From an uncultured Candidatus Saccharibacteria bacterium (lineage in GTDB: Bacteria > Patescibacteriota > Saccharimonadia > Saccharimonadales > Saccharimonadaceae): a stretch of DNA of 53,445 nt. Shown piece after piece: positions 19,787-22,788 of this stretch (positions are counted from its first letter, which is position 1; every line of letters starts with the position of its first letter). The stretch lies in contig CAMYXA010000004.1 of the NCBI GenBank assembly GCA_947302975.1, positions 1 to 53,445 on the forward strand, written 5' to 3'. A program made the position numbers and the translations under genes. The notes beneath the pieces were generated by a model. It ran no database searches and was not told where the DNA came from. It saw nothing but the letters and a program-made list of their open reading frames with translations.

Positions 19787-21079
19787 TTAAATTTCAGTGA
19801 AATTTTTTACGAAATCCTGCACCGGATATTCGTTTTTGTAGCTAAAACCTTGTGGGGCTGGCACTTCAAGAGGAAGATCAGCATATCCCTCGAGCTTTTT
19901 GTGATATGCCTCGCGAAGTTCGTTGACTTCACCCACACATTCAAACGGTTTTTCGGCTCCATCCACCCCAAGAAGACCTTTAAAATCGTTGATAAGTTTC
20001 GGGTTCTCAAATAAATCATTTCCAAACAGAATAGTAAGTTCGCTAGCCGGCACAAATGGCGCAAAAACTAGGAATGAGTTGGCACACTTGGCACATTCGC
20101 CGCACCAAGTTAGCTTGGTGTTATTAACTTTTTGGCGATAGTTGGCGACGTTGCAGGAGCTAAACGAGTGACCGTATTTTTCCCAGCACTTTTCGGCGAA
20201 AAGCTCGGCGATTCTAAGCTCGGAATAACCCCTGATTAATGACCCAACTTGTATCTCGGAAGAAACATAGCGATGTACATATTCGGCAAAATACTTTTCG
20301 GCGGTCCAGGTCTTGCTCCACTGGTGGTTAACGGCTAAATCGCCCGCCTCGGAATCAGCAATAATCGAATGTGGCTCCTCGCCCTCGTGTCCGATACTGG
20401 TGATAACTGTGCTGCGATGATCCAAGACCGCTTGGATAAGTGCATAGCTCATCAAGATATAGGTAACTGGAACGTGACCATTGAGATATCCAGGCTTAGA
20501 CGAAGCTTCGTTCAACCCCTTAATATCCACCTCGCGAATCACGTGGTCAACCGCAGGACTAATCTCGTCAATCACCTCTGGATGGTTAGCGGTGCTGCCA
20601 GCATAAAACGCCACCCAATCTTTTTCTTCTTCATCGAGTAGTGTTGCGGTGAGAATCGAATCCTTGCCGCCAGATTGCAGCGCCAAAACGCGGCCCTTGC
20701 CAAACGGCAAAGCCACCTTGGTCAAATTCTCCTCAAGTGAAGGCTTAAACGAGACCAAATCCTTCCTTGAAAGATGATTCTCAAAGGCAAACTGCGAAAG
20801 CCCCTCGTTATAAACTAGATTCAAAAACTTGGCCGTGAACCTGTCGATCTCAAAAGGCAAAATTGCGCCCTTTGTTGGATGAGCCTTATAATAAGAGGTT
20901 CCAGCCAAAAGAAAGCTAAGCTTCAAGGCTCGGTCCAAGATCTCGTCGAGAGCTGATGAATATTCGATATTCTTCTTGAAGTGCACAGTTTCGGTGAAAA
21001 GAAGTCCCTCCGCGTCGGTATAGCGAAAGTTCGCTACGAACGTATTTTTATCAAAATCATAGCCCACGAAACGAAACAT
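19787..21079 (-). CDS. murL: UDP-MurNAc-L-Ala-L-Glu epimerase MurL (predicted)
   Basis: 430 residues with a PP-loop ATP-binding motif LALQSGGKDS (132-141) and a CGECAKC cluster (326-332). This combination next to a murD gene matches MurL, described in Xanthomonas, where MurD2 adds L-Glu and MurL epimerises it in an ATP-dependent reaction to D-Glu within the nucleotide precursor (established knowledge). The start overlaps the murD stop by one base (TAATG), so the two are translationally coupled. Assignment rests on the motif, length and neighbour. A different PP-loop enzyme is the main alternative. Confidence 0.75.
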   Translation of the reverse strand: MFRFVGYDFDKNTFVANFRYTDAEGLLFTETVHFKKNIEYSSALDEILDRALKLSFLLAGTSYYKAHPTKGAILPFEIDRFTAKFLNLVYNEGLSQFAFENHLSRKDLVSFKPSLEENLTKVALPFGKGRVLALQSGGKDSILTATLLDEEEKDWVAFYAGSTANHPEVIDEISPAVDHVIREVDIKGLNEASSKPGYLNGHVPVTYILMSYALIQAVLDHRSTVITSIGHEGEEPHSIIADSEAGDLAVNHQWSKTWTAEKYFAEYVHRYVSSEIQVGSLIRGYSELRIAELFAEKCWEKYGHSFSSCNVANYRQKVNNTKLTWCGECAKCANSFLVFAPFVPASELTILFGNDLFENPKLINDFKGLLGVDGAEKPFECVGEVNELREAYHKKLEGYADLPLEVPAPQGFSYKNEYPVQDFVKNFTEI

Positions 21080-22317: not shown

Positions 22318-22362
22318 TCACCAAAAAAGAATTAGCCCTAAAAGAGCTAATTCTTTTAACGG

Positions 22363-22620
22363 TTATCTTTGTGTGAGGTGCCAAGAGAGGTCGATCGAGT
22401 TAAACTCGAGACGAAGCCTTTCTCGTCCAGCCAAGACATCGAAGATGTGGAGAGTTGCTTTGCCCGCAAAGCGAATATGCGTGCGGAGCAGCTCGGTGAT
22501 TTCGGTTTCGACTCCGCCAGGTCGCTTAAAGGTAAGCGGCTGGCAAGGCGTCATTTCGTAACCGAAAAGTGCCATCACCTCGACCCGTTCGTCTTGGTTA
22601 TTAAGAATTGTATTTTTCAT
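22363..22620 (-). CDS. Small orphan protein, 85 residues
   Basis: The family is not recognised. Start ATG has AAGGAG four bases upstream. The product is probably mostly beta strand (alternating pattern in VEVMALFGYEMTPCQPLTF, KATLHIFDVL, RLRLEFNSIDLSWHL) with a conserved-looking FKRPGG turn. It has no signal peptide or membrane segment and one cysteine. It resembles, loosely, small actinobacterial DUF6504-type proteins, but this is weak. What stands out is the 130-base structured leader before it. The gene is real on the strength of its promoter, leader and ribosome binding site; function unknown. Confidence 0.65.
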   Translation of the reverse strand: MKNTILNNQDERVEVMALFGYEMTPCQPLTFKRPGGVETEITELLRTHIRFAGKATLHIFDVLAGRERLRLEFNSIDLSWHLTQR

Positions 22621-22752
22621 AAAGACTCCTTGAAATTATTAAAAGAGTCATTTATGCGAGCCCGATTTATTGGCTCCTGGCTACGGTCATAAATGACGAT
22701 AACCGCAGCTTTTAGCTTTTCTCTATGCCAGTGACCGAAGTATAGCTAGAGA
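22621..22752 (-). promoter_or_regulatory. Riboswitch-like structured leader
   Basis: Three helices can form on the minus strand. Helix A pairs 22684-22690 with 22699-22705 (7 bp, one G-T). Helix B pairs 22688-22697 with 22647-22656 (10 bp perfect, GTCATTTATG/CATAAATGAC) and encloses a GAGCC/GGCTC hairpin. Helix C pairs GACTC (22645-22649) with the GAGTC containing the Shine-Dalgarno bases (22624-22628). A and B share 22688-22690 and B and C share 22647-22649, so each pair is mutually exclusive. This is the layout of a translational on/off switch. No known ligand class was recognised. Confidence 0.5.
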
Positions 22753-22759
22753 TACCCTT

Positions 22760-22765
22760 ATTATA
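22760..22765 (-). promoter_or_regulatory. Extended -10 before structured leader
   Basis: Minus-strand TGG-TATAAT. The predicted start, near 22752, gives a leader of about 130 bases. Confidence 0.6.
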
Positions 22766-22788
22766 CCAAAAACGGCTCATAAGCGTGA

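Follow-up and report, generated by a model that had tools for sequence, protein, structure and literature searches.

Saccharibacteria are very small and live on other bacteria. In an uncultured member of this group, a gene for an 85-aa protein is preceded by a leader of approximately 130 nt, and the questions raised by this locus are whether the leader is a structured RNA that controls the gene and what might trigger it. The window denotes the whole stretch of DNA that was analysed (53,445 nucleotides). The gene (22363..22620) and all elements of the leader are located on the - strand. Among 118 orthologs of the gene, the differences at the first, second, and third codon positions are 0.22, 0.17, and 0.54, and the third position differs most. 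An extended -10 promoter element, TGGTATAAT (22760..22768, -), was identified from the sequence and from comparative spacing. The end of the -10 hexamer lies 6 nt upstream of the first hairpin of the leader (P1) in 106/118 homologous loci. Based on this spacing, the 5' end of the mRNA, where we infer the start site, probably coincides with the beginning of P1 or adjoins it. The gene is followed by a probable intrinsic terminator that consists of a 12-bp stem (AAAAGAATTAGC/GCTAATTCTTTT) and a T run (22323..22357, -). This terminator was recognised from the sequence, and the terminator scan did not report the stem-loop at 22323-22357. A terminator at this position would make the transcription unit of the 85-aa gene monocistronic, which it probably is. 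Elsewhere in the window, positions 19787-21079 (-) encode a 430-aa protein without a Pfam match that adjoins a peptidase M16 gene and is found near the leader in 13/118 loci.

The minimum free energy of the leader is -47 kcal/mol, compared with -27.3 +/- 3.6 kcal/mol for dinucleotide shuffles (z -5.46), and none of the 200 shuffles is as good. P1 (22720..22752) is a 5' hairpin that is capped by the tetraloop ACUUCGGU (YNMG). It exhibits a conserved 1x3 internal loop where U22742 lies opposite C22731-A22732-C22733. P2 (22680..22709) is an 11-bp hairpin (22699-22709/22680-22690) with a near-invariant loop, CGUCAUUU (22691-22698). P3 (22658..22676) is the hairpin GAGCC/GGCUC (22672-22676/22658-22662), and its loop length varies between leaders. 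The loop of P2 contains the 5' strand of a candidate pseudoknot, GUCAUUU (22691..22697), and the 3' strand is AAAUGAC (22647..22653). P4 (22624..22649) is a helix that covers the Shine-Dalgarno (SD) region, where GACUCU (22649-22644) pairs with 22624-22629 within AGGAGUC. The SD sequence itself is AAGGAG (22626..22631), and its GGAG core is present in 118/118 leaders tested. The GAC at 22647-22649 is shared by the 3' strand of the pseudoknot and P4, whose 5' end it forms.

The first-pass annotation of the window had proposed a 7-bp helix, a 10-bp helix that excludes it, and a further helix that would hide the SD bases. These pairings are present in the leader. The 7-bp helix (CGGUUAU/AUGACCG, 22699-22705/22684-22690) is the inner part of the 11-bp hairpin P2. 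The 10-bp pairing of GUCAUUUAUG (22697-22688) with CAUAAAUGAC (22656-22647) is perfect. A perfect 10-bp helix occurs in 3/300 dinucleotide shuffles of the 132-nt leader, where the longest helix is 6.3 bp on average. The helix that hides the SD corresponds to GACUCU (22649-22644) with 22624-22629, and positions 22647-22649 are common to it and the 10-bp pairing. The mutual exclusion of the first two helices was correct only for three base pairs (22688-22690). Since only 3/10 base pairs clash with the hairpin stem and the P2 loop accounts for seven to eight of the ten, the rest is compatible as a hairpin with a 7-8 bp pseudoknot. The true exclusion is between the pseudoknot and the anti-SD helix P4.

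The leader and the gene are distributed together among the bacteria of the genus Ca. Nanosyncoccus. The protein is present in 119/147 genomes of this genus, and the RNA, searched with covariance model R1, is also present in 119/147 genomes. The tallies and the listed absences are identical, and the genomes without the gene among those listed are also without the leader. The window genome has exactly one strong R1 copy, and each genome checked has one strong copy directly upstream of the gene. Weak R1 matches on the opposite strand (for instance 22536-22656, +) were set aside since they overlap the partly palindromic SD and anti-SD segments. A usable gene start was available at 118 loci, which supplied the reading frames, starts, and leaders for comparison, and a recognisable leader was found at 118/118 complete loci. 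The neighbours of the gene are changeable. A divergent ABC gene is found near it in 4/118 loci, murD in 23/118, and dus in 69/118, and the conservation of the leader is not explained by synteny. Among the relatives, Candidatus Nanosyncoccus alces is named, and the other close ones belong to Saccharibacteria that were sampled from gut and rumen.

The first-pass annotation had named conservation and covariation of the helices at homologous loci as the check on its reading, and both were found. The alignment (A4) consists of 99 model-aligned leaders and includes further genera of the family. The helices P1 to P4 are paired in 93.6% of cells, and 377 cells are changed on both sides compared with 108 in shuffled alignments (0/500 shuffles as high). 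The signal is lost when the helix partners are slid against each other. Changes on both sides are found in 7/9 outer pairs of P1 and in 9/10 counted pairs of P2. A null that preserves the phylogeny, similar in kind to that of R-scape, was also applied with our own script, where a FastTree tree was built, the substitutions of each column were re-thrown on its branches, and column pairs were scored by G-test with APC. Seven column pairs have E<0.05 against this null. Six of them are model pairs of P1 and P2, and the remaining one (55-95) is stacked on P2. The P1 pair is columns 9-26 (E=0.04), and P2 has five pairs and the one stacked on its outer end (E<0.04). Hence, P1 and P2 covary, also when phylogeny is taken into account. 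Within these leaders (type A), there is little variation in P3, P4, and the pseudoknot, and covariation is uninformative there apart from rare compensated changes in P3, which are GUGCC/GGCAC in one leader (L118) and GAGGU/ACCUC in two others (L166 and L167). P3 is 100% paired and P4 is paired in 98.1% of cells in the 99 leaders. Between the P2 loop GUCAUUU and the AAAUGAC strand, 99.7% of cells are complementary, and the sole changes are from U-A to U-G.

The same alignment bears on whether the leader is a functional RNA or conserved DNA, namely an operator or an overlapping gene. The very high sequence conservation and the partly palindromic anti-SD and SD segments would suit such DNA. However, the bases of P2 change freely but pairwise, the lengths of the hairpin loops vary, and the leader showed no coding signal. 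The antisense or DNA-operator reading is disfavoured by the covariation and was rejected, and conserved DNA as the explanation of the leader is extremely improbable. The leader is very probably a structured RNA that controls translation of the 85-aa gene.

The control would be exerted through the competition between the pseudoknot and P4. In the OFF state, P4 would pair GACUCU with the SD region and ribosomes would be blocked. In the ON state, the P2 loop GUCAUUU would take AAAUGAC as a pseudoknot, GAC would leave P4, and the SD would be freed. The folding results are consistent with the first of these states. The SD core GGAG is approximately 98% paired in nested folds of the 118 leaders, and 37% of it is unpaired when the pseudoknot strands are blocked in folding. 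The nested model favours P4 (mean -44.6 versus -33.7), the bare pseudoknot duplex adds only about -5, and P4 is thus ahead by roughly 6 kcal/mol. That the ON state is not favoured energetically counts against the switch proposed here. Since P4 is favoured, the ON state would need a stabilising partner or would depend on kinetics and co-transcriptional order. The ON state could form first because the strands of the pseudoknot are transcribed before the SD, and a factor that stays bound at P1 would then decide whether P4 takes over.

A change of temperature has to be considered as the trigger. The mRNA of E. coli cspA forms two exclusive conformations (PMC4166951), and the thermoregulator of cspA (Rfam RF01766) resembles the system described here in its logic and product size, where paralogous small all-beta proteins are preceded by leaders with exclusive conformations (PMC4166951). 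The present leader differs from it by the absence of a sequence or covariance model match in Rfam, and the product is not a cold-shock domain according to Pfam. In nested folds of the 118 leaders, which represent helices without pseudoknots, approximately 97-98% of the SD remains paired at temperatures between 20 and 60 C, and simple melting is therefore not supported. The hosts of the lineage in the window are also warm-blooded animals. A temperature switch of the cspA kind is very unlikely.

The leaders of paralogous genes show which parts of the RNA are shared. Most other genera of the order have a B-type protein with a different leader of the same layout (type B). The P1 of type B exhibits the same core (A-N-AC / GU-CCC-U) with a longer apical part. 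The core can be written as A-N-(AC)..(GU)-C-M-C-U across the leaders of paralogous genes (type B and distant). The hairpin loop GAAACG of type B is complementary to a downstream CGUUUC over 6-7 bp in 20/20 leaders, and the anti-SD helix of type B (UUCUCNAA / UUNGAGGA) overlaps the CGUUUC strand. One leader (L201) exhibits a matched change, where GAACGG in the loop is matched by CCGUUC in the strand, and one pair of the type-B anti-SD helix varies between A-U, U-A, and G-C. The type-B leaders also exhibit an internal loop that is large and invariant (UCACU..AAGCGUCCCU). The B genes of three genera of one family of the order (genera g8, g28, and g29 of f1) have an A-like P1 that is capped by YNMG, and the P1 core is all that they have in common with type A. 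In two genomes of Ca. Nanosyncoccus (L120 and L121), a B paralog without P1 is located directly behind another open reading frame. At six loci from other families of the order, the leaders are longer (approximately 250 nt) and exhibit an extra conserved 5' domain (GUGUGGGCU...UUCCUCC.UACAG) ahead of the P1 region. At three further loci (L177, L182, and L202), gene B is separated from the type-B leader by an extra small ORF with the pattern YIE..R..RPE.ID..LE.RMKEF..RR, and ORFs similar to it were seen at four more loci (L217, L218, L221, and L222).

The P1 core was found to be confined to the leaders of one gene family. In 120 genomes, all matches to the P1 pattern AYACYNMGGTCMCTGG precede family genes except one, which is in a genome (G040) where it has no adjoining family gene. 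One of the matches (L223) precedes a further family paralog. With the type-B model R2, we searched 345 genomes and fetched 13 of the weaker or second matches. Eleven of these 13 precede very distant family members (profile E from 1e-9 to 1e-34), and the remaining two are without P1. Thus, the RNA motif led to relatives that had been missed by the search with a single protein. No association with metabolic or transport genes was found, and the credible RNA matches examined precede one small-protein family.

This confinement is predicted by autogenous control, and it fits autoregulation at least as well as a metabolite riboswitch. The encoded protein or a paralog, bound at the internal loop of P1 and repressing its own synthesis, would be the likeliest trigger. 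We propose autoregulation as a tentative answer that falls somewhat short of probable. Several observations count against it. The protein fold has no match to a known RNA-binding protein, the family genes at 20 loci from other classes showed no such leader, the B paralog of L120 and L121 is without its own P1, and the type-B and distant leaders contain aptamer-like elements, which are internal loops that are larger and invariant or additional 5' domains.

The last of these observations points to the main rival, a metabolite or ion riboswitch, where P1 (with P2 and the pseudoknot) would be the aptamer and a ligand would stabilise the pseudoknot or P4 and set translation. Such a riboswitch would account for the conserved unpaired nucleotides in the P1 loop, for the large invariant loop of type B and the longer, more complex distant leaders, for the independence of the leader from gene neighbours, and for a covarying structure with a pseudoknot and an overlapping expression platform where P4 buries the SD. 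However, the RNA precedes one protein family only and no transporter or enzyme gene hints at a ligand, the P1 of type A is no more than a hairpin with a 1x3 loop, and no Rfam riboswitch resembles it. The term riboswitch-like used in the first-pass annotation is apt for a structured leader that is capable of switching and can hide the SD, and no evidence was found for the metabolite that the term implies. We consider the riboswitch a serious candidate that is nevertheless rather unlikely.

Another factor might act at P1 in trans, such as a ribosomal protein, an RNA chaperone, or a small RNA, or P1 might merely stabilise the 5' end. The probable location of P1 at the 5' end of the mRNA (106/118 loci by spacing) is in line with both, and the form of P1 tends to follow lineage, as in the A-like P1 of the B genes in g8, g28, and g29. 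The P1 pattern precedes no other gene family in the 120 genomes, so a general factor would have a regulon of a single family, and end protection leaves the invariant bases of the internal loop unexplained. We regard these possibilities as quite unlikely.

The encoded protein is not an orphan, as the first-pass annotation had called its gene. The family spans 230/345 genomes and 87/148 genera of the order and 39/169 sampled genera of the phylum. Two AlphaFold models exhibit a confident all-beta fold of seven strands (pLDDT 88.7 and 89.9). The fold search with these two models gave no PDB match below E 0.1 and no match to a known RNA-binding protein, and the best viral match is an uncharacterised phage protein (E 0.027). 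Sequence searches against Pfam, NCBIfam, PHROGs, and PDB returned nothing solid for the protein. Two phylum-level members (G581 and G482) exceed the cut-off of DUF6504 (Pfam PF20114, 24.2 bits) at the family gene, and others are just below it. Based on these members, the family resembles a branch of DUF6504 that has diverged. DUF6504 is not matched by the window protein or by its close relatives, and their relation to it is therefore indirect.

The family gene is located just downstream of a LexA-type gene in 5/20 phylum-level loci, and two of these (L321 and L337) have a small Cys-containing ORF between both genes. This neighbourhood is a hint of a DNA-damage setting. The window genome also has a LexA-type domain, which is located elsewhere in the genome. 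At four loci outside the order (L322, L333, L338, and L339), direct repeats that resemble TTCGG-N5-TTCG are found just upstream of the family gene (GAACGTTTGTTC in L322), and these repeats are possible transcription-factor sites of the SOS type. None of the 20 family loci from other classes of the phylum showed a leader of the P1 type, and the RNA thus seems to be characteristic of the order studied here.

The RNA family is real, well supported, and not previously catalogued. Rfam release 15 (4227 models) gave one tRNA only at gathering thresholds over the whole window. For the leader, two chance matches to eukaryotic snoRNAs were the only results at E<=10 with permissive filters, in agreement with the first-pass annotation, which had recognised no known riboswitch class. 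Twenty homologous and paralogous loci gave tRNAs and one sub-threshold sX4 match that overlaps a tRNA, and no description of the leader RNA was found in the literature search.

Two groups of known leaders can be compared with it. The leaders of ribosomal-protein operons (such as S15, L20, and L10) are autogenous. The present leader is similar to them as a cis leader that precedes one protein family only, with a hairpin as the candidate protein site and a putative translational switch, and it differs from them in that the product is not a ribosomal protein, there is no Rfam match, and protein binding is putative. In translational riboswitches of the preQ1-II and SAM-II type, a pseudoknot is linked to SD sequestration. 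The present leader is similar to these riboswitches in that a hairpin loop pairs with a strand that adjoins the SD region and the SD is hidden in one state. It differs from them by the absence of a matching consensus and of a metabolic gene association, and its pseudoknot would compete with the helix that hides the SD, unlike a pseudoknot that itself hides the SD.

Taken as a whole, the preferred explanation is that the leader of approximately 130 nt is a cis-acting on/off switch of translation that belongs to a new RNA family and is triggered by protein, which is plausible at a strength just below what would be called probable. A broader reading would place order-wide RNA sensors of at least two architectures (A and B) with one P1 core in front of the DUF6504-like family, which lies beside lexA-type genes in other Patescibacteria, and P1 would bind a small molecule or a damage-related signal. 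This broader reading is unlikely.

To our knowledge, there has been very little work on how Patescibacteria regulate their genes. The leader is defined well enough by its covariation, its invariant core, its competing helices, and its association with one gene family for a direct reporter test. The findings in this work also name a small-protein family that most sampled genomes of the order contain and that extends to much of the phylum, and give its predicted fold, and the apparent link to DUF6504 and the lexA-type neighbours are a first handle on the function of the protein. If the order-wide sensors were true, these bacteria would have a layer of control at the RNA level over a possible stress-response protein.
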